From assembly GCA_946699065.1 (NCBI GenBank), contig CAMPDV010001060.1, forward strand, positions 62,001-126,000: 64,000 nt of DNA. Reading direction: 5' to 3'. Of the stretch, positions 14,301 through 60,972 are shown in pieces. The notes below the pieces were generated by a model, which saw nothing but the letters and a program-made list of their open reading frames with translations, searched no databases and was not told the DNA's origin. Position 1 is the first letter of the stretch. Each line of letters opens with the position of its first letter. This stretch comes from Loxodes magnus (taxonomy: Eukaryota > Ciliophora > Karyorelictea > Loxodida > Loxodidae). A program made the position numbers and the translations under genes.

Positions 14301-15885
14301 TAACAGGCATAAATTAAGAACAAGAAATGCACAGAAAAATTCTTAACTGTTCATCTGCATTTTTCATAAGAAATTAAAAAAGCTAAAGTCTTGTTATAGG
14401 AGTTGAGTTTCTTTATTTATAAAGATTAGCTATTAACTTATTAAAACTTTACCTCTTTTTAATATAATCGAAAAGCAAAAGGGAAAGTTATTCACAAAGA
14501 ATTTCATTTTTATTTCCATATATTTAGGATATTTACTATTCTAACTTTTGCATATTCAAAGTAGTATGAACAAGCATAAAATCTGAAATTTTCAATTTTT
14601 TTCCTTATTTTAAGAGTTTCTAAATTTCTTTTAAGCTTTATATTTTTTGTACTTAGCAATTTTGAGGCTTTTCAACTTTTGAATAAACAGGATGCCTTTT
14701 AATAAATATTTCATAAAGTTAGTTATATATTTTTTCGTCTTCTGTTAATATAAAATAGCAAATATCTTTGAATTATTATTTATTTTATTCCAATTATTAT
14801 TATTCTATTTCTCTATCTTAATTTTTAAGAATTTCAAAAATTGCTCTAACTTAAGATTTTATTTCAGAAGGAATTTATATAATAAAAATTTCTTCATATT
14901 TTAGATACTATTCAAATTTTTAATCTATATCAATTAAACGCTTATAAATCTCTGTGCCAGTTTAGTAATTCTATTATTCCTTCAATTTATCTAAAAGAGT
15001 TTAAGATGATTCTTAATATTTTTCTTAGTCAAATAAATCAATTATTTCTTAGAATTAATTTTCCTTCTGACTATAATCATCTTAAAGAAGTTTTACTTTC
15101 ATTTTTTTCTCTAGATGAGGTTAATCTTTGAATATAAGCTAAGAAATTTTATCATAAAAATATTTATTGCTCTTATAAAAATTTAAAAGTAATTCTGGAA
15201 TTTAATCAAAAAATTAAGATTTATATAATTAAATAAGGCCTTCGAAATCTTCTATTAGATCAATCGGACATTAGTTGGAAAAAGTATTCAATAATTTTTC
15301 TAGTGTTATGGGTACTTTTTACTGATAGCATATAGGTGATTAAATTTATGAATAATCCTTTAATAATTCTAAATATAAATAAACACTAAGAATTAAATCC
15401 TTTTAATTTATCTTTTATAATACTTAGTTACAATATTTGAAATTTTTTTTGTTTAATCAAAACATTAAGAGATTTTTATTAGCTATGTAATCATTAGTTT
15501 TTTCAAAATAAGAATATTAAGTACAATATTTTTCAAAAAATTCCAATTCTCTCTTCTGAATCAACTAAGATAATATTTCTTCTTATTTTATTTTCTCTTA
15601 AGAGCTGAAGTAAGAATGAAATTATTCCATATTTTAGATACTAAAGTTTTATTCATTTATTTATAAAGACGCTTAATAAAATTATTCTTCATTATTACTT
15701 GTTTGATTGCTTGCTTGATCTTAATTTTAAATAGTTATCAGTTATTTATTTTCTTCATTTGCTATGTCCTAAACATTTTATTCCAAACCTTTTTAATTGC
15801 TTTATTCTCTTGCTTATTTTGATTCGATTTTTTAAGTATTTTTATTTAAAGTTTAAGAAAAACCATAACTATATGGCTAATTCAT
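8339..15885 (-). CDS. Gene 2: giant GBP/VLIG-type GTPase with Cys/His module and VWA domain; one frame break
   Basis: Full-length family member. The ATG at 15885 (MNQPYSYGF) opens a Gln/Asn-rich N-terminus without the SAM domain of gene 3. Degenerate G-like segment GPKGCTS is near residue 572 and the canonical P-loop GPQSSGKS near residue 986. Next come the W-x3-F/W motif region (12226-12252), a helical region, the Cys/His module (EYCLLCRRQC, then HACHYGHQ) near 9.3 kb, and a VWA domain with MIDAS DSSNS near 8.9 kb and MSDGQ. It ends PNLYP-TGA. Upstream motifs share one frame and downstream motifs another; the difference is exactly accounted for by the 20-bp tandem duplication at 10001-10040. 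Without it the gene would be 2,509 codons in one frame. As written it encodes a shifted C-terminus unless the duplication is an assembly error. A GTPase role is inferred from family motifs. Confidence 0.8.
10001..10040. repeat. Perfect 20-bp tandem duplication inside gene 2
   Basis: Two head-to-tail copies of ATCTTGAATTTGATTTTCTT. The extra 20 nt shifts the frame of gene 2. Removing one copy joins AQENQIQDK to a continuation that matches gene 3 (FYVDPK block) in frame. Confidence 0.95.
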
Positions 15886-17550
15886 TATCTACTATTTTTA
15901 ATTAAAAGACTTTATAATAAATTATCTTATAAAGATTAATTTTAAAATTATTTTAGTTTATTTATATTTATATCCTTAAAATTTTTTTCACTATCCGTTA
16001 TTTTTGCAACTAGAGACTTAATATAAATTAGTATTCAAAGTAGAAATACTTAAATCAATTATAAAGGATTTTTTACCAAAAAATAATATATTATATAAAA
16101 ATAACTTTTGAATCTTAAAAGTAAAAATATATATTTTAATAATGTAGAAATAAACTTATAATAAATCCATTTAGTTAAAGTTTCCTATTATTGAATTATC
16201 AAAAATAGAATATGATAAATATCATTTATTCCTAAAGAGTTATAAAGCCTTTCCAATTATAAATTTTTATTTACAAAATAGTTTTGCTAAGTGAAATTTT
16301 TACTATAAGAACAAAACCATTTTTAATAATTAAAATTTAAAAGCAATTTTACTTTATTCTAAAGTCTAATACTAAAGCATTTTTTATAAACTATGCTAAA
16401 ATGTTACTAATTTTCTTTTAAATAAGTAGAGATCATAAAATTAGTCATAAATTTATTAAACACGGGATATTAAACACACAATATAAGAAACCTCATTAAT
16501 TATGTAATCAAGTACAATAAATTGAAAAAATGCAATATTAAAATTATTCAAAATAAAAAAATCTTAAATAAAGATAAATATTTAGAAATTAATTATGAAT
16601 TTTTAGGATTGAAGTAAATAACAAATTTTTAAATCAAAACTTTTAGCAAATATATTAAATCATGCTTTAATTAAAAATTTAATGAAATTGATCAGAAAAT
16701 TTATAGATGAAGATATATAAAAAAATTATAAACATTTATAAAAATCTAAAATCTAATAATTAAAAATTAAATAGCTTATTTATAAAAACTTAAATTAATT
16801 TAGAAATAATAAAGACATAAGAGTTTCTTAAAAATGTGATAGATTTAAGCAATATTTAGATTATTTTTTATTAAATTTAGTCATTTTATTGAAAATTCCG
16901 ATTTCTGAAATGAATGATGATAGCAAACAATAAATTTATATGTTATATGTTTATAAGTATTTTGTAATTATAATATTTAAGTTGCTACTTTTTAAACTTA
17001 AAACTCTAATTTTCTTTTTTATGAGATTAATTTTTTAGTTTAGTCATAAACTATTCGTTTATTTTATTTTAAACTTTTGAAAAAGAATTAACTAAAGCTT
17101 ATTAAGTTTAATGAAAGTTTAAAATATTAGCATGATTTCTAATGAAAGTATTAAACATTTCGCTATTTAAATTTTTTATTTAAATCATTAGATATAATGA
17201 TTTAATTTACTGACGAAATTAAGCTTGCATTTATATCTTGATTAAATTAATAAAAGTCTAAGGAGCAGGAGATATCTTCAAAGTCTTATTAATGATAAAA
17301 AACATTTAATTTTAAAAGCTTTCTTACTTTATCTAAATTATCTTGATTTTTTAAAACAAGAAAACAACTTTAAATCTAACTAAATCAAGTCAGTTTTTTT
17401 ATTTTTTTTCCAAGATTGAAAATAAAAAATTTGCGAGTTATTTAAACTATTTTTTATTAAGGTATCTATCAATAGTCTCGTAAATTAAGTAAAATAAATT
17501 TAAGATAAATTTATAAGAATAGAACATTAGTTTTAGAAAAAATGTACTTA
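15886..17550. other. AT-rich stretch, nothing recognised
   Basis: Upstream of gene 2. A/T-rich with short homopolymer runs. I found no conserved motif, repeat of other window parts or RNA gene here. The promoter of gene 2 presumably lies at its left end, but no element can be identified. Confidence 0.5.
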
Positions 17551-26879: not shown

Positions 26880-29800
26880 TTAAAAATATTAATATTATGA
26901 GTATCTTTCTTTTTGCAATTTTTTCTCATTCAAAATTTCAATATCTTTTATCACTTGCGACTCTCAATCTCTTGCCAGCAAATTCAGCTACTAATTCATT
27001 GCTAATTTAAATCCATTACTAATTTCAGTAATCTATTTATCTTAGATACAAAGTTTTTTTACTATCTCTTAATGATAAACTTATATTTTCATCATCACAA
27101 TATTTCTAAAAATCTCTTAACATAATTTATTTTATTTAGTCAAATTTATCATTAGTCTACTGCTTCATTTCCTTACTAATTATTTCTATTTTTATATTAG
27201 CAACTCCTTGATATTTTTGTAGTGCCTTTTAAACTAGATTTGTTAAATTTTACTTATGTTATTATTCTTTAGTTTTAAAATTATCTTATATTAACTGGCT
27301 TATTTTTTCACTTAATTTATTGTCTTATTTCTTTTCATCAAGACTAGTAAACTATGTTATACCTTTACATACCTAGGTGAATGATCAATGGCTTGAAGAA
27401 AATAAAAATCATTCATGCAAAGTATAGTGATCCCATTACTTATTTTCATATTAAACTGCTCTTTTTAATATTTCTTTTCTAAGAGGTTCTAATAATTCAG
27501 AAAATTCAAAAGATTGTTAATTAACTAATAGATTTCCTTCTCTTGATCTATCAAATACAAAGGTAAAATAAATACATTTTCTTTTGTTATTGTAAACATT
27601 TGTTTTAGTTTTTAATTCTAATTTTGCTGATTTTCACTCATATTTTCATCTATATCAAAAATAGCCTAAGTTATTCCTTTAACGCTTTCTTCCATAGCAA
27701 ACTCATTTATTAAAGCTTGCATATTCATTATGATATTTACGCTCGGTTATTCTATAATTCTTTCTTTAAGAGCTGAAATTGCATCAATAGCTAGTTTTAT
27801 TACTTCAGCCATTTGCTTATTCATTTCTCCCTTATTGAATATAAGTATAACATGAGATACACACATTAAATAGAATATTATCATTCTATCAAGCTAATCA
27901 TCTCTTCCTTCTGCAGATAAAATTCCTTCAGTATCAAGTAATAATATTTTCTTATAAGGAGAGTTTTAATTATTACTTATTGTTAATAAAGAAGCATAAA
28001 CTCCTCTTGTACGTCTTCCAGTAGTCATAAATTATGTACCAAAGAGGATGTTAAGTAGAAGTGACTTTCTTGATGATTGAGGACCTATAGCACTTACTAC
28101 AAGAACTTAATCTTAATCATTTTAGTGTATTATATTATACACATCTGATATAAACTATAAATTATTGCCATCTATTATTTCAAATTGTTATCCTTAGCTT
28201 ATTTATAGCTTCGCCAGTTCAAAGTAAGAATTTTTGGATTCCTCTCCTATATTAATCTAATTTGTAGAGACTTAAGAATATTATCCAAGATAATAGAGTT
28301 CTCGGATAATAAATTCCAAACTGAAATGTTTTTAATCAATCTTAGCAGTTACTTCTTTCATTTTTTATTGGATTAATTATTTATTTTAGCTGGATATATT
28401 TTTTTACTACAAATCAGCTATATATTAAGTTCTTTCTTCATACAATGGTTAAAGCTCTTTATCTAAAATTCCTTTTAATAGCTTAGATAGTATAGGAGCT
28501 ATTCCAATAAAGCTATCACTATTTATAATCTCCATCAGTATTTTTACTATTTATGTTTGCTTCTACATCTTTAATTAATTTTTTAAAATATTTTTCTTTT
28601 CCCAAATTTAATCTCTAATTTCCTATTGTATTTCACTTTCTTTCCATAACTCTATTTCATATTTACAAATTTCCTCCATTATATAATTACAGGGTAGAAA
28701 GGATTTGTCTTTTAGAATATTAATAGCTTTCGCTATTTCACTCATGAATTTATTGATTAACTCTAAGCTTTTTTAAATATCAGTACAATACAAGTTATTT
28801 TCTTTAATAATATTATAAAATGCTTGCATTGAATTAATTCTCATATTATAGTCTCCTATAAACTATTAATAGTTTTATATTTTTTATAGGATTAAATCAT
28901 AAACTCTATCTTTAAGGTTTATTTTAGCTTACTCTTCCATTATTTAATATTAGCATATCTATATTTAATAAATATTTTGAGTTTAAGAAGTTATTTTTAT
29001 AATTTCTTAACTAAAGATTAGATTATGCTCTATAACTATTATTAGAAAATCTTACTTTATTTACTTTATTTTTCCTATTTAAGCTTATAGAAGAGCTTTA
29101 TCTGCTTCATTGTTGAGAACATGGATAATGAAAATATCAAAGAGACTATAGAACTTTTCTAATATTTCTACTTATTAAAATCCATGTCCATCTGCTACTG
29201 GGATATGCATTGGAGATACAAAATTATAGTCAAACTAGATTTCGATGGTTCCATAGTTGGTTAATCTATTATTATGCTTTTCGAAATCCCTATTAAAGAT
29301 TTAGTTAATAAAAGAAGTACAACCAATAGGACCTTAGTTAGGATTTACTTGGAGTTTAAAAGTAAAAATAGACTTATACTTCTCAAAAATATAAAACAGT
29401 TCAGTATGAATTTAATGTTTCATCTAGTTAGTTTATAAATCTACTTCGTATACTAGTAAAGGAATTGGCATAAACTGAGAACACGCCATACACAACATTA
29501 TACGTAACCATTTATCTGAATTTTTCATTAGAAATTGGAAAAATTAAAGTCTTGTGAAAGGAGTCTGACTATTCTTTTTTGAAAAAGCAGTTACTAATTT
29601 TGAGAAACTTATCTTTCTTTTGATGCAATCAAAAAGCAAAATTTAAAGCTAATCAAAAGGAAAATCATTTTCTCTTCCATATTTATCAATTATATCAGCT
29701 TCTAATTTATTCATTTCCAGACCAACATGAACACTCGTAAAATCGCTAATTGTTAGTTTTTTATTTCCAATTTTCAAAGCTTTACATACTTCTATTAGAT

Positions 29801-30692
29801 TTTCTAAATTTGTCTCTTAGCAATTTTTTGAATGCCCTATTTAAAAACCCAATTTACTACTTGAAAACTGTTATAATATCTACTATTATAGGTTTCCTAA
29901 AGACTACTTAAAATTATAATTTTATATTTATTCAATTTACAAACTTTACACTTCCTTCTGAAATAATTACTTTCATTATAGAATTTCCTTTAACTTTTAT
30001 TAACGTAGCTCAACACTATTAATTTTAATGGTTTGGTTTTGTTTAGATTTATATTTCATATTTTAAATTTTTCTTATTTTTTAATTAGTTGCTTAGTTAA
30101 AATCTTTTAAGTCTTTTAGAAAAGGAATTGCCTCCTCTAGGCACACTTTTTTAGTATGTCTTTAGATTTAGTTAGTAAAAGCACTACAATTTTATTTGAA
30201 CTATTAAGAATCATTGATCAAAGCTTTTTAAGCTGCATCTATTTTCTAAAATATTTAAATTTGTTCTTTAATTATGTTACTTTCTTCTTGCTTTATCTAG
30301 TCATATAGTTCTTTCAAAATTTACTCGATTGGTATTTGTTAGTGGTTCTAGTGAGTAGTTCTGGAACACTCTATGCAGATTTTTGAATTTTCATTTCGGC
30401 AATAATATTTACAAATCTATTAATGGATTTTGCAAATTTCCTAGACACTCTATTGTTATACTTGATTCAAAAGCTAGGGATATTATGAGTAAATAGCGTT
30501 TAAATTTTCCATTATTTTCCTCCACTGAAAAGTCTTAATTCCTATATTATTTGCATCAATATCCGTAATTTCTTTCAGATCTTGGATTTACGAAACTCCA
30601 TAATTTCATAAATTTTGAAGTATTTCATTAGCAAGTTATTTATTGCTTGAGAAAGTTTAAAAAATGAAAGATTTTAAGTTAATTTAGCTCAT
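26880..30692 (-). pseudogene. Copy A-prime: GBP/VLIG-type GTPase pseudogene
   Basis: Near-identical partner of copy A over its N-terminal half (ATG at 30692, SAM-like domain, degenerate G segment GPIGCTS at 29333). It continues into the second G domain at about 28.08 kb. Three defects are visible. First, the P-loop reads GPQSSRKS: the Gly before the catalytic Lys has become Arg (GGA to AGA). Second, near 27.56 kb one T appears missing in the block that reads ILPFAFDRFGE in relatives, and motifs on either side are in different frames. Third, homology stops at about 26.88 kb without the Cys/His module or VWA domain. Further downstream motifs (HEWFLF, SSHWSFT with TGA = Trp; KYQGVANIKIE; FQKYCDDENISLS) keep family identity. 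It is divergently oriented to gene 3. Confidence 0.75.
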
Positions 30693-30876
30693 TTTATTAT
30701 TTAATTGAAGTTAATAAAATAAAAATAAAGTTTACAGTCAAGACTTAAACACTTCTAGAAGAAATTTTTTAATTATTTAACAATTATTTTGAATATAATA
30801 AAATAAACTGCTTTTTAAAACGTATTAACATTATGAAAATTCATAAATACAAACTTTTTATTATTTCTATTTTTAA
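28768..30876. repeat. Direct repeat R1, copy 2 (pair with 1-2108)
   Basis: Second copy of the segmental duplication covering the N-terminal half of A/A-prime and its 5' flank. It ends at TTCTATTTTTAA, after which the two loci are unrelated for different lengths before the same LINE family begins. Confidence 0.9.
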
Positions 30877-32062: not shown

Positions 32063-35000
32063 ATGGAAGATTTAAATTTGGAGAAGTTCATTAGAAAAGT
32101 TTTCAATATCCAGTAGTAAGCTTAGGATATATTTAATAAGCTGAATGAATTTGGAGTAGAATACTTATAAGATTTGGGCGAGATGACAGATGAATAAGCA
32201 AAATAAGCTGGAATTAAACCTTTTTAATGAAATAAAATAAAAAAAGCATATAGTCAATATTCAAGTAATAGCCAGCCAAAAGAAATATAAAATTTAGATA
32301 ATGAGCAAAAATAAGTTGCCACTGAGATTATTTAATAAGCTTAAATCAAAGAAGAATAAAAGCAAAAATAAAACTAATAAGACTCAAACTAAAAGCCTGA
32401 ATAATCACTCTAACCTTAAACATTATAAGAACAAACTTCTTCTTAACAAGTTTTGGTAAATTAGAATAAGAACTTGAATGAAATTAGTTAATTTAATTAA
32501 AACCAGAAAGGCTAGTTGAACTTGACTTAGGAAGCCGTTTAATAATAGTTTATTTAAAATTTAAAAAGCAGCAAAGATTATAGTACACTTAATAAAAAAG
32601 AAACATAAACGATTGATTAGCAAACTTTATAAGAAAACGAAACAGCTTCATTAGTATAATCAAAAATAGTATAGTCTGATAAGCAAGAGTAGGAATAAAG
32701 TAAAGTAGTAGAGATAGACGAAAACAATGTTACTTCAGAAAACTTAAGTTAGTTCCTACCTTATTTTAAAAATAAAACTAAAACTTAATAAGAAAATATC
32801 TTAAAAGGTTGGATATAATAAGAAAAGTACGAAATTTTTTAGATCTTCTGCTAGCATAATTCCTACTTTGAGTAAGATGAAGAACATAATAAAAGTAAAA
32901 AATGATTATAAACTTTACTGAAAAAAAGTTAGTTTGATAAATGTAATGAAGAACTTAAAAAGCTAGCTAAAAAAAACTTAGCTAGTAGTATGTATTTATG
33001 ATTGACGATTTGTAAGTAGTTTCAATAAATTAAATCTCCTGTAAGTCAAAATTCGCTTAAGAAGAGTCTATAAGATTTTACAGAAGAGTGTCCTACAAAC
33101 TGTAAAGAGTTATTTGAAGATCTGATTTTATATTACAAAATTGAAGATTTCTAATCAGTTCTATAGTATTTAATTGATATTTAAAACGTTTCCAGTTGCT
33201 TTTATGAACATATATCAGAAGTGATTTATGAAGAATAGCCTTAACTGCTTAATTAATGAAAGCTATTAAATCTAAAGTAGTAATTTTAATATTACTAAAT
33301 AAAAGAACAAGAAGATATCTTTTATTATCAAATCCAATAAAATTACATAGAATCCTCTAAAAGTCTTCTATCTTTAACGAGGAATTAAAAGCATTCTGAA
33401 GTAGCCTTCTAGCTTTATAACTATTTTGCAAATCTAAATCCTAACTTTAAAGAGATTTTAAAGGAGGAATAAATATTTCTAATTAAAACTCCAAAAGAGA
33501 TTCAAGGCTAAGTATAAAGCATATTTTAAATTCTAGGTAACTAAAATAAATTAACTGAGTAGTAGCAAAGAGAGTATCAGCTTTAATTCAAGGAATCTTG
33601 CTCTATCATCTTATTTGAAGACTAGGAGTTATTTGAAGAACTCCACAATCATTTTATTATTAAAAACGATTTTTACTCAAAAATTGAAAAACCTAAAAGC
33701 TAATTAAGCTAAAACTTAGAAAGCTTAAGAGAAATTCAAGCAATTCTAAAGCCTTAAGAATCGAAACTAACAATAACTGACTTTATGACTGTTTATCCTG
33801 ATTTAAAAATTTTAGACTTGGAGATAAAAATTGCTGAAGAGTATGGAGAAAGCAACCAACTTGAAGTAGGATAACTCTAAATTTTACTTTTCGAATATAT
33901 TAAAAAGAATATAAGTTTCTCCAAATTAATTACTGCTCTTTCTAAAAAGAATTATCAAACCCCGTTAACAATAACATAGTTGTTCTAGTTTTTAATGAAT
34001 AGTTCAGACTAATATTTACGAATTCTCTTGTGTATCTCTTGCTCAATGTTCATGCCTATTCCACTATTGTCTTATGAAGTTGAGTCTAACTAAAGGAAAG
34101 CAAAAGTTTATCCTGAGCTTTTCTATGTCTTTGAAAAATATAAATCTGTCTTAACCTTTAAACTTTAGAAGAACCCTAACAAAGGACCAGTTGGATGTAC
34201 ATCTTTAATAAACTCTATCTTAAATAGAGATTTTGAGAAACATAGCAACAGACTAACTAATTATGGAAGCATCGAAATCTAGTTTGATTATAATTTTGCT
34301 GTTCCCATGTATATTCCAGTAGCAGATGCTCATGGATACTAATAAGTGGAAGTATTATAAAAGTGATACAGCTTGTTTGATATATTTATCATCCATATTC
34401 TTGATAATGAAGAAGACAAAACTCTACTTTAAAGCTAAATAGCCAAGATTACATAAGACAATAGAGAAGCCTTGGTAATTGTCATTGTCCACTTTTAAAA
34501 TTTAGAAAATGGTAATTTTTAACTGGAATGAACAAAAGAAAATGTTTACGAAATTAAAATTTAGAAGTATGAAAAAATAAACGAATAAGCAAAAACTAAC
34601 TTGAAAGATTAAATTTATGAAATTATCTAATAAAAAATTAAATAATCTAAGGCTTTTACTAGAAATTAGATTAATTGAATTAATTCAATAGAATCCTATA
34701 TTAGAAACAAAAATAAGATATAACAGTTATAAAGAAATTTAATATTAAGCTAGGACTTTATAAAATAAATAAATGAAAATATTAATAAACTCAAAACTAA
34801 ATAATTTTTACCTTGTAATTATATAATGGATGAAATATGTAACAAAGAACTTATGTTATGTAAAGATAATGAATTGGAGGAAACTAAAAGAAAAGTTATT
34901 AGTCAATGTTCATAGAATTTAAAATAAGAATTAACTTAATAAAATTAAACTAAAATTGTTAAAACTCTGGTTTAAATTATAGATTCTTAAAATTTCATAG

Positions 35001-35650
35001 GAATAGGCTATATTATTGCTAATTAACTAAAGTAACTTCTAGATTAATAACTTGAGCCTCTTTACAATGATAGAACTTAGTTAAGAGATTAGTTTCAAAT
35101 GCAAACTCTAGATATCCAATAAAAATAAGAAATAACTGAAAAGATAAAGGACTTGACATCATAAATTGAATAAAATAGATTTAGTTTCGAATTTGTAATA
35201 AGAGAATTATATTATCTTGCAGAAGACTCTTAATAAAGATCTTTAAATAAAACAAGCTAAATATAAGAAAAAAAAAATTATATTTAATTAGCAAAGCTTC
35301 TAATCAATTAGGGATAACCTTTTGAAATAATAGACGGTAATAACTTATAATTTGTTTCTGATGTTTATGATGTTATACACTAGTTTGATTAAGATTATGT
35401 GCTTATTGTGAGTGTCATAGGACCTCAGTCGTCAGGAAAATCTCTTTTACTTAACTTTTTGTTTGGAACTTAGTTTCTTTCAGCTGCAGGAAGATGCACT
35501 AGAGGAGTCTATGGATCTTTATTAAATGTTAGAAGTGACCATAGTTCTAAGTACAAGAAAATTTTACTTCTAGACACTGAAGGATTCTTATCTGCTGAAG
35601 GGAAAGATGATCAGTTTGATAGAAGGATAGTGTTTTATATAATGTGTGTA
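31798..35650. repeat. Left arm of large inverted repeat (partner about 57050-60925)
   Basis: The upstream flank and first half of gene 3 are near-identical, in reverse orientation, to gene 5. Identity is very high to about 35.62 kb and drops after the GTPase G3 motif. A further 48 bp of matching flank (30877-30924) lies left of the LINE insertion and matches about 60925-60972. Confidence 0.85.
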
Positions 35651-38600
35651 TCTCATGTCGTTCTTATATGTAACAAGGGAGAAATGAACAAATAAATGGC
35701 TGAAGTAATAAAACTTGCAATGGATGCAATCTCTTCACTTAAAGAAAAAATAATCTAAATGCCAAGTATAAATATTATAATGAACATGTAAACTACAATT
35801 AATGAATAAGCAATGGAGGAAAGTATAAAAGGGCTTATACAAGCTATTTAAGAAATCTAGGAAATAAAGGAAAATGAAAAGCAGCTGAAAAGTAATATTT
35901 TCAAATATTTTCAAATTACAAAGGAAAATGTTTTTATGCTTCCCTTTGCTTTTTAAAGAATAGGTGAGAAAGAGCTTTTAGTTAATTAGCCTTCGTATAA
36001 TTTTTCTATATCACTAGAGCCTCTTAAATAAAAAATGTTATAAAGAATAATCGATTTTGATGAAAAATAAGGAAATCATTATACATTATCCTAATGATTT
36101 AAGTTTGCTTCTGAATAATGAACTTTTACTTCAACTTTTAAAGGAATAATTTAATTTATTAGTTTAGATGAGAAAAAGAACAATAGAAAGCTGGATGAAA
36201 AAATAGAAAGTTTAGTTTAAGAACACTTAGAACAAAATTTTAAAGAAAAAAATTAAGAAATAGAATAAATAATTTTAGATAGCTTAAAAAAATATTAAGG
36301 AACTGGATTTGTAATGATGGAGGTTGTAAAATAGGAAATAGAGGAATAAATAAAAATTAAATTTATGGTAATTAATAATAAAATTTAAGATTTATTCTTA
36401 AAATATTGTAATGATGAAAAAATAAGTCAAACATTAAAAGAAAATAAGTAAAATAATCTTACAAGGTAAATTTAATACTGAAAGTAATAATGAATATAAG
36501 AAGGCTACAAAAAAATCGAAGATTTTTCTAGTGAAAAGGTAAAATTAGTGTAAGATGTAAGATTAGAGACTTATATTCGCAAAGCTCTTTAAGAATGGTA
36601 AAATTACACAGATAAATAAGCAGAGAACAAATTTTAAGAAGCATGATTAAATATAATAAAGGAGGTGTAAGAAATGTTAAAACCAAAATAAGCAGTATAA
36701 GATCAAATTTTTAATTTAATTCATGATCAATATCAAATTGAAATTATAGAAAATTAAAATCAAAACATTTAAGAAGAAAGAAGCTTTCTATAGAATTTCA
36801 ATATTTAAGGAAATAACTTTTTCTTTTAGTATATAATCAATTAAAGTTAAAATAGCAACTTTTTCTTTTTTATTGGAAATAAAATTAGGCCATACATAGA
36901 GAAAATTAAGTAAAGCTTAAATGAAAAATTAGTTTATTTGTAAAAATAAAAATTTCCTTAAAATAAGAATAAGGATATGATATCTAAACAAAAGCAAATA
37001 TTAAGATTTGATTGAATAAAATTTGTCAAAGAAAGATTTTGATTTGTTTAATTAATTAAAAGGTTATATAATATTGAAAATATAGCAAATTGAAAGCCAT
37101 CATGAAAAAATAAAGATTCTATAGAATAAATAATCGAAGACTTAAAAGGAGAAACTGAATATTTTTAATTAAATTGTGATTTTTTAATATAAGAGCTAAG
37201 GGATATAGTAAATACTTTATTAAGATATAATAATAAAAATTAAAAAAATGATTATTTTGTAAAGATGGATATTTAAAATTTAATACAATTGTTTATAAAA
37301 GATGTTTATCATAATATTACTAAGTATTTTTAAATTTAGCCAAAAAATAGAAACTACGATTTTGACTGTAGTTAAAATTATTATTTTTATCAAGTTAACT
37401 ACATTAATAAAATTAAAGAAACCTCAACTAAAAAAATTTAATTTTCAAATAAAATATAAAAATATTAAATCTAAGACTACATAATACCTGAAAACTTTCA
37501 AGAAAATATGTAAAATAGTAACGATATCATTGCAGAAAATATTTAATGAAAATTTGAATAATTTTTTTTGTAGTAATTAGACTAAGGTGTATAAAAATAC
37601 TTTAAATTCCTTTAAGAGCCATAAAGAAATCCCTTAAATGAACAAGGATAAGAATGCAGATAGACAATTAATTATTTTCACAATTTAATAAATTGGTAAA
37701 CACTAATAAAAGACATTGAAAAATGTGTTTTATAAAATTATAAAAGAAATAATGAGGTAGAGGAGAATGAATCTATTTAAGAATGAATACAAAATTTGAA
37801 AAGAAGCAGCATATAATAAAATTAGTTTGTTGAAATTACTAAAATACTAACTAAAAATACAGCAAAGAATGTTAAATAAATTATATCAAATCTTAACTAA
37901 GAATTATAACCTTTCTGCTTGGAAACTTCAGAAAAGGGTATTCATTTCATCCATTTAGTCGCTTAAACGTATTTAGCAACTTTAGGTATCGAATTAGAAA
38001 TTATTAAAGAACATGCACCTCTTGATTTTTTAAAAGCGTAAGAGAAAATTTACAAAGAAAAGTTTATTGCAATTTTAACAAGTAATGATCAATAAATAGA
38101 TACTTCACTAGCAAATTAAATCATTCATTAACTAAAAACTGATTTAGTAGAAAGTACTAAAAATTAAATTGAGCAAAGTTTTAATGATAAATTGTAAAGA
38201 ATCAAGGAAGCAAAGTTTGAGAAGAAAAAAATTATTCAGTAAATTGAAGATTTTATATTAATAAAAGGTGATAAATAACAATAAGGCTAAACATATTAGC
38301 AAGAGAAAATTGATATAACAGAAGAAGAAGCAGTGATGTTTTACGTTGACCCTAAAACTTTATTTGAAACAACTTTGTTTAAAAAATATTGAAAGATGTA
38401 TGTTATTTAAATAATTGAGGATACAAAAAATGCTTATAAGGATATAATTGAAAAGAATGTTAATAATCTTAGGACTTATTTTGGGGAACTAAAATTATAA
38501 ATATAGCTTAAATGTTAAGTATCTTCGAGTTAACTTTTTGTGGAGTAAAATGATTAATATAACCAATAATAAAAGTTCACAAGTTAAATAATAGAAGCTT

Positions 38601-39928
38601 CTTAAAAAGCTGCAGCATACTATTTAAGTAAGCTTGTTTCTGAGGAATGGAAGCAAAATTAAGTAATATAAATAGAAAATATTTAAATGGTTGGGAATAA
38701 TAAATATATGCTACCTTTACCTTCTGACATTTAATAAGAATTTAGCCTTGATAAAGATATTTCTAAAATCATCATAAATAAACTAAAAGAACAAAGAATT
38801 TCTAATTTATATGATTTTATTGATTTTTTATGAAATTAACTCAAAAACATTAACTTTTCGGAAGAAATTAAGAGTAAAATTGATTCAGAAGACGTTTATA
38901 AAAACAATCTTCAAGAATGTAAAAATTAGTTAGTAGGTTGTGATGAATACTGTAAACTTTGCAGAAAATAATGCGATATTGAACATAAAATAAATGAAGC
39001 TTTAGATTATGAAATACATCAATGCAAAGGAGGTCATTAAATTTAAGCTTTAGGAGGAGGTAGAGAAAAATTAAATAATAGAGCTCTGATAGTTTCCTGC
39101 AATGAACTTAGAGACAAAGATTAAGTCTATTTTAATAACTAGCCTTTAATTTGATAGTAATTTAAGCGGGAATTCAAAAATTGATAATTTGAGAGCTAAA
39201 TAAATACAAAAGAAGTAAAGTAAAAAAATATTAAAATATGAAATATTCTAGGATAATAAATTTGTATGCATTACTAACAAAAAAAAATTAATATTTAATT
39301 TGAGCCAATAAATAATATTTAATAATGAATGTTAATATCTACTAAGATACATTACATTTTAATGCTTGATAGTAGTGGATCAATGGGAGGCAATAACATT
39401 TTGTAAACTTAAAGAATGAAATCTTAAGCTACAGTTACTAAATGAGTTATTTTGTTGAATTCTGTTAAGTAATTTATATAGAAATTAGAGTAAAATTAAG
39501 CCCATTGTTAAAATTCTAAAGTTTCAATAATAGAATATAATGATTAAGTAAAAGTAATTTGTAAAGAAATATCTCCTAGTTCCAATATAGTTTAATAAAT
39601 TTATTTCATGGGAGGGTGCACAAATTTTGAATAACCACTTTAAGAAGCATATATGATAATTTAATAAAATTTAAATAATTATGATAAGCACGTTTTATGT
39701 ATGATGACAGATGGTTAAGCTGAATATCCTAAAAGCATAATAAAAACTATAATAGAAAATCAAGAAGTGATGAGCAAAATATAGTTTGTTGCAATTACTT
39801 ATGGGAAACATGATTTCTAAATAATTAAAAAAATTGCTTAAAAACTAAATGGAGAAATAAAATCTTGCATAGAACCAGAATAATTATAATCAGCATTTTT
39901 AGAGTTGATACCAAATACATATGATTGA
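32063..39928 (+). CDS. Gene 3: giant SAM-GBP/VLIG GTPase-Cys/His-VWA protein
   Basis: Best-preserved family member: ATG at 32063 to tandem TGA-TGA (39926-39931), 7,866 nt or 2,621 codons plus stop, with every motif checked in one frame. Domains: SAM-like (residues about 3-60, ending GIKPFQ-W-NKIKKAY with W = TGA); Gln-rich linker to about 240; degenerate G segment GPVGCTS at 708 without the usual Lys; canonical GBP/VLIG P-loop GPQSSGKS at 1120, TRGVYGS switch, DTEG at 1171; LSQWFKFASEQW block with two TGA-coded Trp (36095-36097, 36119-36121); long helical region; Cys/His module (CDEYCKLCRKQC, then HQCKGGHQIQALGG) near 38.95-39.05 kb; VWA with MIDAS DSSGS (39.37 kb) and MMTDGQ. GBP/VLIG relatives hydrolyse GTP and self-assemble; VWA domains bind ligands through a metal. 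Substrate and role here are unknown. It forms an inverted duplicate with gene 5. Confidence 0.85.
35294..35846 (+). repeat. 553-bp block shared with 45430-45982 (GTPase core)
   Basis: Near-identical to 45430-45982 in copy 4, with sharp edges, while the flanking sequence of the two paralogues is clearly more diverged. It covers the P-loop through the region after DTEG. The length is the same in both copies, which suggests a gene-conversion tract. Confidence 0.75.
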
Positions 39929-41755
39929 TGAAGGAAATTTTAAAATTAATTTTAAACTTAATTTATTTTTAAGCGATTATATTTAATTATGATATATAAC
40001 AAATTTAATAATTCTTAATTCTAATTTCTTACTTTTAAAACTCTTTTTATTGAAAGTAGAATGTTTAGATCTTTTTATAAAAATGGAAGAGATAATTTAA
40101 TTATTCCTCAATTTAGATATTTTATTTAAAAAAGAAGTAAAAATCAATTTTTCCTTGGAAATATTTAAAAAACAAATTATTTGTACTTTGTAAATAAATA
40201 ACATAAGAATTTTGAAGAATTATCCCTTCTAATGAATCAAAAGAATATATATATTAAAAATGATAAATATAAGCAGCAATAGATCTACCTTCCTACTTAA
40301 ATTAAAAATTACACTCTTCATCACAATAAAACCTTATTTTACCAAATATTCTTGAAAAAAACACGAAATTAAATAAAACTCATAAATACCACTTACGTAA
40401 CCGTTAAAAATATCTCAAATAATTATAATATATGAAATTTTTGAAATAATAAACTAAAAATTAAATATAAAATATCATGTCTATAAAATAAAAGATGATG
40501 AAGTGAGTATAAAGGATTAATGAAAAAGATATGAGATTTTTGAAACTACAAAACTATTGGAACAGTTTAAATTATAAATTATTTTTCCTGGAATCTAGAA
40601 AAAGCTTATTCTTCATATTTTTTTCATTATTTTTCTTGAAATTTATTTAAAAAATTCGAATACAGAAAAGCTAAAAAATAAAGAAATTAAATTAAATTAA
40701 ATTAAAAATAATATAGTTTGCTTAATAGCTTTGAAAAAAATAAAGAAATATTAAAATTACATTATGCAAAAAGAAAAAATCGAATAAAGCACAAATTTTC
40801 AATTTTATAAATTCACAGTCTTAATTTTTTAAGTTAAAAAATTTGCATTTTAGCGATCAAATTATCAACATAAAAATGTTTTATATATTAAAATTTTTTT
40901 TTTGTAGATTCAAAGCAAGAGGATAATTATGCATTTTCAATATCATCAAAAAACTATTATAATTTTGATAGTGATTCTTTTATTTTATACTTAATTATTT
41001 AATAATAATTGAAAAGCTGATTTTAATTTTACTGATCAAAGATTGAAATAAAACATTAAAATCATAAATAAATTAATTAAATCTTTGTTTATCCTTTTTT
41101 TCATTAATTCATATAATTTTAAAATCAATTAAAACTGAAAATAATATAATGTTATATTAATTAAATAATAAAAGGATAATTACCCTCTATTAAAATTTAA
41201 TTGTATCTTAATAAAATAAACAGAAAATAGATATTAAAAAAAGAATAAGACTTTAAATTCAAAAGTGATTCATTAATATAATATTTATATAAATTGATTT
41301 TTTAATATGAAATTTAAATTTGCTATTGAAGTTTTATGAAAAGAAAAAATTTTGTAAATTTAAAATATCAGTATTTTGCTTTCTTATAAATAATCTTGAA
41401 AACAAAATATCGTATATTATTATCATTTTTATATCTATATAATTTAAAAAAAATATACGATATTTAATTTTTTTTTAATCAAAAAACTTAAATTCTAGAT
41501 ATAAAAAATGACTATAAAATTCAAATTTTATAATAATATGAAGATAGCGTGAAATAGTGGCGGTTTTAAGAAATGGATAAGGTATAATATGAAAAAGTAT
41601 GTTATAATTAAGATAAAAAGGGTTAATATCTTTTATTATTTTTATTTTTTAATTATTTTTATAATTTAACTTAAATAATTTTAGAACTTAAATTTCATAA
41701 ATATAATATTAATCTTATTCTAGAATTTTCTAACTATTACATAATAATTTTTTAT
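39929..41755. other. AT-rich stretch 3' of gene 3
   Basis: No gene recognised. It contains dispersed repeat R3 (40580-41160) and low-complexity A/T runs. The 3' UTR and polyadenylation region of gene 3 must lie just after 39931, but no signal is identifiable. Confidence 0.5.
40580..41160. repeat. Dispersed repeat R3, copy 2 (pair with 4430-4964)
   Basis: Same orientation as copy 1, diverged but collinear: TTTCCTGGAATC, then TTTTGTAGATTCAAAGCA at about 40.9 kb, then AAAATCAATTAAAACTGAAA. No ORF signal. Confidence 0.6.
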
Positions 41756-44649: not shown

Positions 44650-44865
44650 ATAATCTCATTTATTTATTCGTTTTATTCTGTTTATTTAATTTCTTATTTT
44701 ATTTAAGATTGTCTTTAATTTTCTACTGTAGGAGGTTATTAAGATTAAGAAAGTTATTATTTTTCTAAAGAAGATGTGATGGATTAAGAATTAGAAGTTT
44801 CTGGTTTTTACTCCTTTATCTATTATTGTGCCTTGATGCAAAAGAATTAATAAAAAATTGACAAT

Positions 44866-47800
44866 TTACAAGAAAGTTTAAGTTTAGTTAAGCAATTTAT
44901 GCACAAAATAAGCCAAAACTAACTAAAATCAAAAAAATATTTACCTTGCAATTATATAATGGATGAAATACTGTGCAATTAACTTTAGTTATATTAAGAT
45001 ATCGAAATGGATGAATCTAAAAGAAGAATCCTTAGACAATCTCTTGATACTTTGAAAATTTAGTTAAATAATTAAACTTAAACTATAATTATAAAAATTC
45101 TAATTTAAATAATATATTCTTAGAATTTTATTGGAGTTGGTTATATTATTGCTAAGCTACTAAAGGAACTCCTATATTAATAGCTTCTGCCTCCTTACTA
45201 GAACAGAACTTAATTCAGAGATTAATTACAAGTACAAACTTTAAATAGCTAAGAGAAATCAAAGATACAAGAAAAGATAAAAGACTTGACATCTTAAATC
45301 GAATAGAAGCGATTTAGTCTCAAATTTGTAATTAGAGAATTATATTATCTTGCACAAAACTCCTATTCAAACTCTACAAATCTAACTATCATCAGATAAG
45401 AATCCAAGCAATAATAAATTGAATTGGCTAAGCTTCTAATCAATTAGGGATAACCTTTTGAAATAATAGACGGTAATAACTTATAATTTGTTTCTGATGT
45501 TTATGATGTTATACACTAGTTTGATTAAGATTATGTGCTTATTGTGAGTGTCATAGGACCTCAGTCGTCAGGAAAATCTCTTTTACTTAACTTTTTGTTC
45601 GGAACTTAGTTTCTTTCAGCTGCAGGAAGATGCACTAGAGGAGTTTATGGATCTTTATTGAATGTTAGAAGTGACCATAGTTCTAAGTACAAGAAAATTT
45701 TACTTCTAGACACTGAAGGAATCTTATCTGCTGAAGGAAGAGATGATCAGATCGATAGAAGGATAATGTTTTATATAATGTGTGTATCTCATGTCGTTCT
45801 TATATGTAACAAGGGAGAAATGAACAAATAAATGGCTGAAGTAATAAAACTTGCAATGGATGCAATCTCTTCACTTAAAGAAAATATAATCTAAAGGCCA
45901 AGCGTAAATATTATAATGAACATGTAAACTACAATTAATGAATAAGCAATGGAGGAAAGTATAAAAGGGCTTATACAAGCTACTTAAGATATAGAGGAAA
46001 CAAAGATAGGAAATAAGAGAGAGTAGGAAAATAGTAATTTGAGATAACAAAAGAAAATGTTTTTATTCTTCCTTTTGCTTTTGATAGATTCGGTGAAGGA
46101 AATTTACTAGTAAATAGACCTTCATTTGATTTTTCTAGATTATTAGAACCTCTTAAAAGAAAGATATTTAAAGAATGATTGAGTTAGACTAAAAATAAGA
46201 AGGCAGTATCACTTTATCCAAATGGTTTAAGTTTGCTTCTGAATAATGAACTTTTACTTAAACGTTCAAAGAAATTACTTATTTTACTACTTTATAAGTT
46301 AAAAAGTAAAATTAATAGCTAATTGAAAAGTAAAAGCAGTTAACTCTAGAGTATTTAGAGAATAAATTCGAGGCAGATAAAGAAGAGATAACTTTATTAA
46401 TTAAAAAAGAGCTAAGTAAATACTAAGGAACTGCTTTCATAAAACTAGAGACAGTTAATATGGAAATAAAGTAAAAAATAAATGAAAAGTTAAACTAAAG
46501 AAATAAATAAATTTTGGATTAGTTTGATAATTATTACAGAGATGAGTTTATAAGTCTTTTTTAAGAGACAGTAAAAGAATTCAATTAATTGGATAGATTT
46601 AAAGCTGAGATTAGTAATGAAGCTAAGATCTGAATTAAAAACTATTAAAATTTGGGAATTAAAAAATAGAGGTAATTACAAATGTCAAGCTATAAGGAAC
46701 GATTAAATAACTAGGACAGTAAAAATATTCTTATGGAAAAAAGAAGCAGAATAGCAATTTGGAGTATTTTGGAATCAAATAATATAAGAAAAAGTTGAAT
46801 AAAATCTTAAGAAACCCGAAATTATTTTAGAAGAAGTGATTGAGTAAGTAACTAGTCAATATTAAGTAGATTAATCTGAAAATAAGTACAAAAATACAAA
46901 GGAAATGCGATAGTTTCTTTAAAGTTACAAACAGTAAGGAAATAACTTTTTGATCTAGTAATTAAATAACTAAAGTGAGAGTTTTCTTTAATATCTAGGA
47001 AATTAAACTAAACCTAATATTATGAATGTGGTAAACTTTGTAAAATAAAGAAAATAATACCTTTAAGGCTTTCCTTAAAATATCTTATAATAGACATTTT
47101 AGTATACTTAGTTTAATTGAATCAAGTTTATTTAAGATAGATTTTGCTTCGATATACTAACTTAAAGAATTGAGTAATTTGTTCTATATGATGAAGATAA
47201 ATTTTTATATAATCGAAGAAAAGCCAATATAAAATAATAAGAGAAATTAGTTAATTAACTTACTTAAGAAGCTTAGATTCTTGAAATAAACTGTGATATT
47301 TTAGTGAAACCCATATAAAATATAGAATTATGATTAAATATTTTTAAAGTAGACTAATAAAATGTAAGTGATAAAAACTATGAAATAAAATAATAAATAA
47401 ACTAATTAGTATTTGATATTTACAATAATGTTCAAAATTATTTTAAAGGTAAAAGAAAAAACTATAAATTTAATTTAGGTTCTAGCAAATAGTATACATT
47501 TTTCTAATTAAACTATATTAATAAGATTACAACTGACTCTTCTAATTCATTTAAATACTAAAAATACTATAAAGTATATAATAATTAAGATTACATAGCA
47601 ACAAGTCTTAGTTAGAAAAGTAATAAGGATAAAGAAGACTTTATTAGTTACAGTATAAAATATAGCTTTGATTAATAATTTTTATGATAACTAGATTAGA
47701 ATGTCCAACATTATTTCGAGTTCATTGAATCGACTAATAAAGTTTTGATTAACAGTCCAGGTATTGAAATAAGAGAAGCAATAGCATATTTCTAAAATCT

Positions 47801-52613: not shown

Positions 52614-55600
52614 TCAGTAAACTTAAATAATAATGAATTTAAATGAAAGTTAAAAGCTTTATATTTATTGAAAGATATAAAAAATGATTATATTGTAAAT
52701 AAAATTAAAGAAAAAATACAAATATATAATTTAAAATTTACTTAAAGGTTAATAATAAGTAAAACTATTGCTAAATTAAATACTTTCTTCTTCATAAATA
52801 TTTGGAATTATTCTTAAAAATGCTGATATTAACTATTCTTCTTCTTAGCAATTTTACATTTTTCCTCCTAAATTGTTTGCTACTTACTCTAATATTTCAA
52901 ATTGATTTCTTTTTCCAAAGCCTATTCCAATAAAATCTATTTTTTATTTTAATTTTAAGTTATCATTAATACTACTTATCGCTTATTTTGGATAATCAGC
53001 TTAACCATCTGACATCAAACATAAAACATGTTTATCGAATTCATTTAAATGTTACTCTATTATTTATATAGCTTTTAAAAGTGGTTTATCATAATTTGTA
53101 TCTCCACTTGTAAATTTTAGTTAATCTATTTTATTGATATCTGGAGTTTCGCAAATGCATACTACTTAAATCTCATTATCATATCCTATTATTGAAACTT
53201 TAGAATTATAACGCCGAAAAGAACTTTCTTATAATTTTCGTACTAAATTTTTTACTGCTTATTATAAATAATATCAAGGAGTATTTTCACTATATTAATT
53301 TTTAAAAAACAATCTTTCATATCAAGCACCTAACATAGAATTGCTTGTATCTAATAACAAAACATAATGTATGCATTTTAATCCTGCTATAGGACCATCT
53401 TCTGTTGCTTCAGCAAATTTGAAACTTTACCCTTTTTCATTTTACCAAAATTCACAAACTTGTTTACCTATTCTTCTCCATATTTCAATATTATCTTTTC
53501 TAAATGTTTCTACTTATTATTTATCATAGTTATCAAATTATCAATTATTAAATTTTTCTTTAAATTCAATTCATTTAATAAAAGAACCTTTATAAAATAT
53601 TTAGTCAATATCTATAAACTCATCACAACTTAAATTAATTGAAAAATCATTATCTAAGTGTTTATTTCCTCTCATAGCTAAAAATTAATGTCTCAAGCAA
53701 GCATGTTTTCTTTAAGTAAGTATTTCGTTTTATTTATGTTCTATATCACATTATTTTCTGCATAGTGGGCAATATTCATCACAACCTATGAAGTAAGATT
53801 TGAAATCTTGAAGATATTCTTCTTCTAATTCTTCATAGCTTAAACTCTCTTGGATTTATTTAATATTATTTTAGTTTTAATTATTTTAGCAAATTTTAGT
53901 TAAAAAGTAGTGAAGATTTTTTATTTATTTATCTTTAATTTCAGAAAAAATAATCTTAATAGTATTTTCATCGAGATTTAAACCTTCAGAAAACTCAATT
54001 GACTAATTTATGTTAAATTATTTGTTTAAAGATACATTGAAACCATCAATAATAATAGATTAACCTTTCTTTCAATTTCCTTAAACGAAATCCTTAAAAA
54101 ATTTGGTAGGAGAAATTTATCAAGGTATTTATTATTAGCTTGTCTCATTTGTTCAGTTACTTATCATTTATTTTTATTTTTAATTCATGCTTTATTTGAA
54201 ACTTCCTTAACTATTTAAAGTAACAATTTATAAAAACTATTAAAAATATAAGTCAATATCATATATCTTTTTTTATATTTCCTACTCGTAGCTCTTTTTA
54301 GTATCTTAAATGATTGGGACTACATTTTCTTATCAAATTTTTTAAAATTATTATTCATAACATTTCTTAGGGTTAACATAAAACATTTCAACATCTAAAT
54401 TTTTTTGAAGCTTTTGTTCCTATCAAACCTATTTTTAATTTTCTGAACTATTGTTGGATTAAAATAAATATTCATTAATCTAAGCTATAAATTTCTTATT
54501 ATTAAATTATTCTTATTTTATATAACTCATCCTATTACTTCAATTTTATTTAGCAGTTTGATATGCTTTTTCCTAAATATCTTATCATAATTTATTAACT
54601 ATTTATTATGCCAGAGAAGAATCTATTTTTTCTTCATTTTTAGTTAAAATAGCAATAAACATATTTTAATATGTTTATTCTTTATCTTATAAATTAAATA
54701 AAGGAATTTTTACTTTAATAATTTCTATTTTTTCAGATAAAGATATTATATAAATTTATGCAATCGAGTTAATCAAATATATTCCTCATTCAGAAATTTA
54801 AAAGCAAAATGGTTCTAACTCTTCATTGAGATTTTATACTAAAAATTTAATATTTATAGCTATATTTTAAGTAACTTATTGAGTAATTTTAACGAAACTG
54901 TTAATATAAGTCTTATTATCACTATTTTTTAATTTCTTTACCCAATCTTCAATATTCTCGTCCTCTTAAACCTGTCCATTACTTTTAATACACTATAAAA
55001 CACAGTTTTCAATATTATTTAATAAATTTTACCAATTTAAGCAATTTTAGAACCATGTAATTGTTCCTCGTATTTCTTCACCAAAGCTGTTAATTGATAT
55101 TTTATTAGGAGATTCAATAAACTTAAAATAATTCTGGACATTCTAATCTAGTTAGCTTAAAAATTATTAATCAAAGCTATATTTTATACTGTAACTAATA
55201 AAATCTTCTTTATCCTTATAACTTTGCTAACTAAGACTAGTTGTTATGTAATCTTAACTATTATATACTTTATAGTCTTTTTAGTATTTAAATGAATTAG
55301 AAGAGTCAGTTGTAATCTTATTAATATAGTTTAATTAGAAAAATGTATACTATTTGCTAGAACATAAATTAAATTTATAGTTTTTACTTTTACCTTTAAG
55401 ATACTTTTGAACATTATTGTAAATATTAAATACTAATTAGTTTATTTATTATTTTATTTCATAGTATTTATCATTTTACATACTTACATTTTATTAGTCT
55501 ACTTTAAATTAATTCAAACATAATTCTATTTTATATATGACATTCACTAAAATATCGCAGTTTATTTCAAAAATCTAGAATTCTTTCGTAAGTACTTCTA

Positions 55601-58600
55601 CTAAATCTTTTTATAATTATGTATAGGTTTTTCTAGTATTTTACTCTTCAAATAAAAGGAAATCTTCAATTTTCTAAGTTAGTGTATCGAAGCAGAATCT
55701 TTCTTAAATAAACTAAATTCAATTAAATTAAGGATACTATATTGTTTCTTATATAATATTTTGAGAAAATTCTTTAATTTCAAGGTATTATTTATTTTAC
55801 TTTATGGAATTTCATATATTTATAATGTTAGGTTTAGTTTAATTTCCTACATATTATAGAAAACTCTCACTTTATTAATTTAATTACTATATTAAAAAGC
55901 TATTTCCTTATTCCTAGTATTTTTAAAAGAGCTATTTCATTTCCTTTTCATTTTTGTACTTATTTTCAGATTAATCTACTTAATATTGACTAATTACTTA
56001 CTCAATCACTTCTTCTAAAATAGTATCAGATTACTTAAGAATTCGCTCAATTGTTTTCAATATTTTGTTTCAAGCTATTGTAAATTGCTATTTTGCTTCT
56101 TAATCTTAAAAATCACTTTATTTCTCTATTTACTTAATCGATTTTTCTAACTTCGCATTTACTATAACTTCTACTTTTTCATTGGTAAATTTTAACATAT
56201 ATTCATTAAAAAGCTAATGTCATTGCTAATTTCAACAATGAATCTAATTAATGAGCTAGATTCTATTATTTTCTCTTAAATATTGACTTATATGCTCATT
56301 TCTGCAGTAATTATCATATTCTTTTAATAATATTTGCTAAATTTTATATACCTTTTAATCCATTTTTTGCTTAATTTCCATATTTACTATATCTAATTAT
56401 ATTAAAGCAGTTCCTTAGTATTTACTTAGCTCTTCTTAAATTAATTAGGTTATTTTTTTTTTCGTTCTCTCAATCTTGGACTCAAGATATTCTTGAATCA
56501 AATATTGTTACTTTTCAATCAGTTTTAGCTTTTATGTTTTCTCTTTCAAACTAGCAAATTAAGTAATTTCTTTAAACGCTTAAGTAAAAGTTCATTACTC
56601 AGAAGCAAATTTAAATCATTCAGATAATGTTTTACTTTTTTCAAACTCTAACTGATTTATTTTCTAAAATATTTTGAATTTGAGAGGTTCTAATAATCTA
56701 AAAAAGGCAAATGAAGGTCTATTTACTAGTAAATTATCTTCACCAAATCTATCAAAAGCAAAAGGAAGAATAAAGACATTTTCTTTTGTTATTTCAAATT
56801 ATCTCAAATTACTATTTTCCTACTCTCTCTTATTTCCTATCTTAGTTTCCTCTATATCTTAAATAGCTTGTATAATTCCTTTTATACTTTCCTCCATTGC
56901 TTATTCATTAATTGTAGTTTACATGTTCATTATAATATTTACGCTTGGCCTTTAGATTATACTTTCTTTAAGTGAAGAAATTGCATCCATTGCAAGTTTT
57001 ATTACTTCAGCCATTTATTTGTTCATTTCACCCTTGTTACATATTAAAACTACATGAGATACACACATTATATAAAACACTATTCTTCTATCAAACTGAT
57101 CATCTTTCCCTTCAGCAGATAAGAATCCTTCAGTGTCTAGAAGTAAAATTTTCTTATACTTAGAACTATGGTCACTTTTAACATTTAATAAAGATCCATA
57201 GACTCCTCTAGTGCATCTTCCTGCAGCTGAAAGAAACTAAGTTCCGAACAAAAAGTTAAGTAAAAGAGATTTTCCAGATGAATAAGGTCCTATGACACTT
57301 ACAATAAGCACATAATCTTAATCAAACTAGTGTATAACATCATAAACATCAGAAACAAATTATAAGTTATTACCGTCTATTATTTCAAAAGGTTATCCCT
57401 AATTGATTAGAAGCTTAGCTAATTAAATATAATTTTTTTTTTCTTATATTTAACTTGTTTTATTTAAAGATCTTTATTGAGAGTTTTGTGCAAGATAATA
57501 TAATTCTCTTATTACAAATTCGAAACTAAATCTATTTTATTCAATTTATGATGTCAAGTCTTTTATCTTTTCAGTTATTTCTTATTTTTATTGGATATCT
57601 AGAGTTTGCATTTGAAACTAATCTCTTAACTAAGTTCTATCATTGTAAAGAGGCTTAAGTTATTAATCTAGAAGTTACTTTAGTTAATTAGCAATAATAT
57701 AGCCTATTCCTATGAAATTTTAAGAATCTATAATTTAAACCAGAGTTTTAACAATTTTAGTTTAATTTTATTAAGTTAATTCTTATTTTAAATTCTATGA
57801 ACATTGACTAATAAATTTTCTTTTAGTTTCATCCAATTCATTATCTTTACATAACATAAGTTCTTTGTTACATATTTCATCCATTATATAATTACAAGGT
57901 AAAAATTATTTAGTTTTGAGTTTATTAATATTTTCATTTATTTATTTTATAAAGTCCTAGCTTAATATTAAATTTCTTTATAACTGTTATATCTTATTTT
58001 TGTTTCTAATATAGGATTTTATTGAATTAATTCAATTAATCTAATTTCTAGTAAAAGCCTTAGATTCTTTAATATTTTATTAGATAATTTCATAAATTTA
58101 ATCTTTCAAGTTAGTTTTTGTTTATTCCTTTATTTTTTCATACTTTTAAATTTTAATTTCGTAAACATTTTCTTTTGTTTATTCCAGTTAAAAATTACCA
58201 TTTTCTAAATTTTAAAAGTGAACAATGACAATTACCAAGGCTTCTCTATTGTCTTATGTAATCTTGGCTATTTAGCTTTAAAGTAGAGTTTTGTCTTCTT
58301 CATTATCAAGAATATGGATGATAAATATATCAAACAAGCTGTATCACTTTTATAATACTTCCACTTATTAGTATCCATGAACATCTGCTACTGGAATATA
58401 CATGGGAACAGCAAAATTATAATCAAACTAGATTTCTATGCTTCCATAATTAGTTAGTCTGTTGCTATGTTTCTCAAAATCTTTATTAAAGATAGAGTTT
58501 ATTAAAGATGTACATCCTGTAGGTCCTTTGTTAGGATTATTCTGAAGCTTAAAGGTTAAGACAGATTTATATTTTTCAAAGACATAGAAAAGCTCAGGAT

Positions 58601-60662: not shown

Positions 60663-60972
60663 TTAGGTTTTAATAAAATTAGAGAAGAATACTTTTATTA
60701 TTATTGACAGCTTTAAAAGCTTAAAGTGTGCTTAATTTCTTAAACGTAGTAGTTTAATTTTAATAATAACTTTTATTTTATTTAATCTTCTGCTGTATCA
60801 TTTTAAATTGTTTGATAAATAAAACAATTAAAAATATTTAAACTCATAGTCTAATCTATTTTTTTCTACATTTATGTCCGTTTACAAGACGAAAATAATA
60901 TATATAAATTTAATTTTTATTATTTAAGCAAATAACTGATTTTCCTTTTATTTCAATTACTTGAAGGAAAAA
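57050..60972. repeat. Right arm of large inverted repeat (partner 30877-30924 plus 31798-35650)
   Basis: Near-identical in reverse orientation to the first half of gene 3 and its upstream flank. It includes the empty TTAA site (60924-60927) corresponding to the LINE insertion upstream of gene 3. The arms are separated by about 21 kb. Confidence 0.85.

Follow-up and report, generated by a model that had tools for sequence, protein, structure and literature searches.

The genes in the 64,000-nucleotide stretch of DNA analysed here (the window) are very probably read, as had been proposed in an original prediction, with NCBI genetic code 27, most likely that of Loxodes magnus. In this code, UAA and UAG encode glutamine, and UGA encodes tryptophan inside coding sequences and is a stop at their true end. 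The window cleanly illustrates how one codon can serve both as a common sense codon and as a stop.

A cluster of giant GTPase genes filled with in-frame TGA codons

Six giant GTPase genes (A, 2, B, 3, 4, and 5) are clustered at positions 1-61000 of the window. In a Pfam scan, genes 2, 3, and 5 and copy B matched the URGCP-like GTPase domain (PF25683); genes 2, 3, and 5 also had a C-terminal VWA domain (PF13519), and copy B had a B-box zinc finger (PF00643). By name, these genes are relatives of the animal interferon-inducible GTPases. The SAM domain mentioned in the original prediction was not reported by Pfam in the copies scanned, and the name comes from that prediction. With the bacterial code, no stop-to-stop frame listed for the window exceeds 126 amino acids. 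All-against-all BLAST in six frames produced too much noise in this AT-rich window, and the frames were instead chosen by base composition per codon position. ARAGORN found no tRNA in the window, and Rfam found nothing at its gathering score.

Gene 3 (32063..39925, forward strand), which starts with the ATG at 32063 and ends in the VWA domain, consists of a single frame of 2621 codons containing 4 TGG and 25 TGA codons, including those at 32228, 32903, 36095, 36119, and 39443. Its likely stop is the TGATGA at 39926..39931 of the same strand. Based on base composition at each codon position, 33 TGA codons would be expected by chance, indicating that TGA has not been purged from this frame as a stop would be. 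Gene 2 (8339..15990, complement) contains 25 TGA codons, counting its likely stop (TGA 8341-8339) and the TGA at 15990, which precedes the likely ATG. Genes 2 and 3 share the place of their terminal TGA, and in both, although these are two genes only, the last sense TGA lies 161 codons ahead of the stop. Gene 5 (52750..60680, complement; 28 in-frame TGA, 6 TGG) has no TGA at this site, and the next in-frame TGA (52616-52614) follows about 60 codons further on. Taken together, genes 2, 3, and 5 contain 78 TGA codons (the stop and the pre-start TGA of gene 2 included) versus 19 TGG codons, and their open frames are filled with TAA and TAG.

If UGA were solely a stop, as in ciliate code 6, the copies would have to be decayed pseudogenes or silenced repeats, a reading that we regard as extremely unlikely. 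What speaks for it is the presence of a retroelement in the region, and the loss or change of frame in three of the six copies. Gene 2 is divided into two frame segments (15990-10040 and 10022-8330), copy B (27530..30720, complement) loses its frame near 27530, and copy 4 (44842..46230, forward strand) changes frame near 46010, so that not all copies need be intact; copy A (1..1923, complement) is cut by the window edge. Decay is, however, difficult to reconcile with a gene 3 that stays in one frame despite its 25 TGA codons, with an otherwise intact actin gene that carries TGA at invariant tryptophans (see below), and with the dN/dS ratios, which were below 1 in all six comparisons and ranged from 0.15 for copy A and gene 3 to 0.63 for the whole pair of genes 3 and 5. 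The latter pair gave 0.39 over codons 160-1260, its near-identical part, and 0.55 over its second part; the values were 0.35 for genes 3 and 2, and 0.36 for copies A and B.

Of note, the frame change in gene 2 coincides with a 20-bp unit that is doubled in tandem (10001-10040, complement), and an intron was considered as a possible cause. Genes 3 and 5 are linked by a 3300-nt inverted repeat (32570-35869 and 56841-60140) that is 97% complementary, which we read as a recent duplication or gene conversion. An RVT_1 reverse transcriptase domain is located at 61800-63989 (complement; E=4.9e-17) when translated with table 27.

Codon pairing identifies the residue at TGA as tryptophan

The prediction that TGA is read as tryptophan was based in part on six codons, all of which were found at their positions: TGA at 32228, 36095, and 36119, and TGG at complement 1755-1757, 46223-46225, and complement 12226-12228. 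The TGA at 32228 aligns with a TGG in copy B (30524), and copy A has the same TGG at this site, within the same FQWRK stretch. The TGA at 36119 aligns with the TGG of gene 2. The third pair, 46223 against 36095, falls outside the alignment because copy 4 changes frame nearby, and was matched by eye in the frame translations (LSKWFKFASEQ versus LSQ-TGA-FKFASEQ). The tryptophan position of the VWA domain is indeed TGA in genes 2, 3, and 5 (8824, 39443, and 53276), and these three codons are mutually aligned. Also, the CWCC (19925) and FGWVKLTIN (63299) motifs are present when TGA is read as W. The second of these motifs is weak evidence, since its tryptophan is presumably not at an invariant position of RVT_1.

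For a broader view, the six copies were aligned pairwise with TAA, TAG, and TGA masked. An aligned partner was available for 81 of the 83 TGA codons (again counting the stop and the pre-start TGA of gene 2), and tryptophan, with 15 cases, leads the partners other than TGA, TAA, and TAG, followed by tyrosine (12), phenylalanine (12), and lysine (10), with the copies in one column counted apart. Over the 2390 aligned columns of genes 2 and 3, TGA stands opposite TGG six times, a 52-fold excess over background (Fisher P=1.5e-8), and opposite itself in 5 columns versus 0.22 expected. In the same columns, TGA showed no excess opposite TGT, TGC, TAA, TAT, TTT, or AGA.

Assignment of UGA to another residue, either cysteine, as in the Euplotes code, or a different aromatic residue, has hardly any probability in our view. 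Its support comes from a masked BLOSUM62 test on the window paralogs, in which tyrosine (6.8) and phenylalanine (3.6) outscored tryptophan (-3.1) for TGA. However, this test discards every TGA-TGA identity, and it also ranked tyrosine above tryptophan for TGG, the unambiguous tryptophan codon, which we take to mean that TGA sites drift among aromatic residues. The test was rejected as a pointer to the residue, whereas codon pairing did single out tryptophan: the excess opposite TGG has no counterpart opposite the cysteine codons TGT and TGC, or opposite TAT and TTT, and two invariant tryptophans of actin carry TGA. The assignment of tryptophan to TGA is thus supported by both codon pairing and actin.

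For the glutamine codons, these paralog tests gave weaker results. In the masked BLOSUM62 test, lysine (61.4) scored slightly over glutamine (55.6) for TAA, and glutamine came first for TAG. In the pairing of genes 2 and 3, TAA-CAA gave P=0.036 and TAG-CAA gave P=0.76.

Actin as an independent test

The genome assembly that we searched comprises 705,730,643 bases in 7843 contigs, and an actin search yielded 96 matches. The full-length actin on contig C15 (L077) contains four sense TGA codons. Two of these fall on Trp 79 and Trp 340 of the solved actins shown, where the actin on contig C437 has TGG, and the other two are at sites occupied by Thr and Gly in 1dej. In both of these actins (L077 and L078), a terminal TGA follows directly after the C-terminal KCF, so the C15 actin uses TGA as sense codon and as stop within one gene. 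At the sequence level, this actin is the clearest proof that UGA encodes tryptophan. Three of its nine TAR codons (118, 134, and 350) fall on glutamines of 1dej. TGA inside genes and at their ends, together with the TAR codons in open frames, agrees with the predicted table 27, the code published for Loxodes magnus, and with the suggestion that the organism is a karyorelict or uses an equivalent code.

TGA is absent from all 43 actin matches of at least 450 bits (e.g., those on C266, C437, and C711) and is present in divergent actins. Avoidance of this codon thus seems to be a trait of the actins that are repeated and perhaps highly expressed.

Tandem arrays of tRNA-Trp genes with a four-base-pair anticodon stem

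Across the genome, a pattern shaped like tRNA-Trp matched at 126 places, and its reversed control matched nowhere. A tRNA that might read UGA, the search for which had been suggested, was found in two tandem arrays. Together these contain at least 115 full-length genes for a tRNA-Trp(CCA) whose anticodon stem has 4 bp; 8 of the 126 matches were left unread. The array on contig C67 (C67:482293-491142) comprises 48 full-length genes, spaced about 187 bp, of which 47 are identical and one has a deletion, plus a truncated end copy. The array on C148 (C148:155434-173067) comprises 67 identical genes, of which 66 lie on one strand about 241 bp apart. Two single genes on C110 have a U paired with A at 27/43, and therefore a normal 5-bp stem. 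All genes read on these three contigs have the anticodon CCA. C110 has another place, where base 43 is A, that is a pattern match only, and one match on C51 is no tRNA according to ARAGORN.

In the array genes, positions 28-42 to 31-39 are paired and 27-43 is open: bases 27 and 43 are A and C on C67 (48/49, the other being the truncated end copy), and U and C on C148 (67/67), which results in the 4-bp stem. This mismatch was read from the base positions; the lowest-energy ViennaRNA folds of these tRNAs are not cloverleaves. The tRNAs of the two arrays differ only at base 27. In the listed flanks, a run of at least five T follows the tRNA-Trp genes. The 47 spacers on C67 occur in 29 forms with a mean identity of 84.8% (lowest 68.9%), and the 65 spacers on C148 have a mean identity of 99.5%; one spacer of each array was compared, and these have only short matches in common. 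A limited literature search did not find tandem tRNA-Trp arrays in print, and they may well be known already.

UGA could also be read as tryptophan by a tRNA-Trp with a UCA anticodon, or by a CCA tRNA edited to UCA, rather than by the 4-bp-stem tRNA as such. We consider this unlikely. When UCA was required in the tRNA-Trp pattern, there was no mismatch-free match and the best 100 of the 126 matches all had CCA, and a UCA anticodon within the same 4-bp stem gave no match genome-wide. Moreover, a 4-bp stem is known from other lineages in which UGA encodes tryptophan (excerpts of PMC13092985 and PMC12153298). On the other side, the pattern would miss a UCA tRNA with a different body, the 8 unread matches to the CCA pattern and 9 unread of the 126 to the UCA pattern leave some room for one, and editing does not show in DNA.

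Our preferred reader remains the 4-bp-stem tRNA-Trp(CCA). Amplification is not limited to tRNA-Trp, since the genes for Lys(UUU), Ala(UGC), and Gln(UUA) are also multiplied. Of 42,786 first-look candidates, 63 tRNAs were scored, and in the 30 loci cut out from these ARAGORN identified 32 genes for Lys(UUU) and 14 for Ala(UGC), arrays among them. The pattern for Gln(UUA) matched 190 times, and the best 100 of these matches include an array at C214:232598-237570; a Met pattern gave 6 matches, five of which had CAT, and no arrays. Evenly spaced tRNA matches forming tandem arrays were also observed at C103:669738-672972 and C158:171420-182004. Since many tRNA genes are multiplied in this genome, the arrays are by themselves no proof of a special role. 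Set against codon share in genes 2, 3, and 5, there are 126 matches for Trp (1.24%), 190 for Gln(UUA) (8.54% TAA), and 6 for Met (1.43%). This makes Trp look high relative to codon use, which is only suggestive, since the patterns differ in sensitivity.

Release factor eRF1 and a possible division of labour

The genome contains two eRF1 copies, both on contig C196; we read a further match, on C2, as resembling Pelota. Compared to human eRF1 (1dt9), we counted by hand on the printed alignment the changes E55A, T58R, S60Q, S70A, and Y125F. S70A and the other changes fall in the codon-reading domain. In Blastocrithidia, a Ser70Gly eRF1 together with a 4-bp tRNA-Trp stem has been linked to strong UGA readthrough, according to the consulted part of PMC12153298.

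The 4-bp-stem tRNA is the probable UGA reader in Loxodes. This tRNA-Trp(CCA) would read UGA as a near-cognate codon and outcompete a weakened eRF1 at UGA codons inside genes, and nearness to the mRNA 3' end may favour termination at the last UGA. Tentatively, and with somewhat more doubt than confidence, we propose that tRNA-Trp(CCA) comes in two classes: one with a 5-bp stem and only a few, single genes, and a UGA-reading one with a 4-bp stem, the amplified dosage of which would help the tRNA to win UGA from eRF1 inside genes. This division of labour is our inference, as is the role of dosage. The wider question is how UGA can be read as tryptophan without losing termination, and the dosage of 4-bp tRNA-Trp genes and Ser70 of eRF1 are its testable parts.

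Comparison with known systems

Both the code and the way it depends on context have already been published, and a 4-bp stem is likewise cited as reported for Loxodes, together with other UGA=Trp lineages, in the consulted part of PMC13092985. For L. magnus itself, a macronuclear assembly of 706 Mbp has been published and table 27 is stated (PMC11441545, in excerpt). As described there for karyorelicts (Loxodes and Parduczia), UAR encodes glutamine, UGA encodes tryptophan and is also a stop, and the GC content of coding sequences exceeds that of 3' ends. The present genes showed no difference from this system in the tests that we ran.

In Condylostoma magnum, UGA is likewise tryptophan or stop depending on context, no UCA tRNA-Trp was found, and a 3'-end model of UGA termination has been put forward (sections of PMC4967479). 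A 4-bp-stem tRNA-Trp is shared as well (same excerpt of PMC13092985), but UAA and UAG can also be stops in that organism. Blastocrithidia, a trypanosomatid and not a ciliate, differs in using UAR for glutamate and UAA as a stop, yet it shares the tRNA-Trp(CCA) with a 4-bp stem and a changed eRF1 Ser70 (PMC12153298, in part), position 70 being glycine in Blastocrithidia and alanine in the Loxodes genome.
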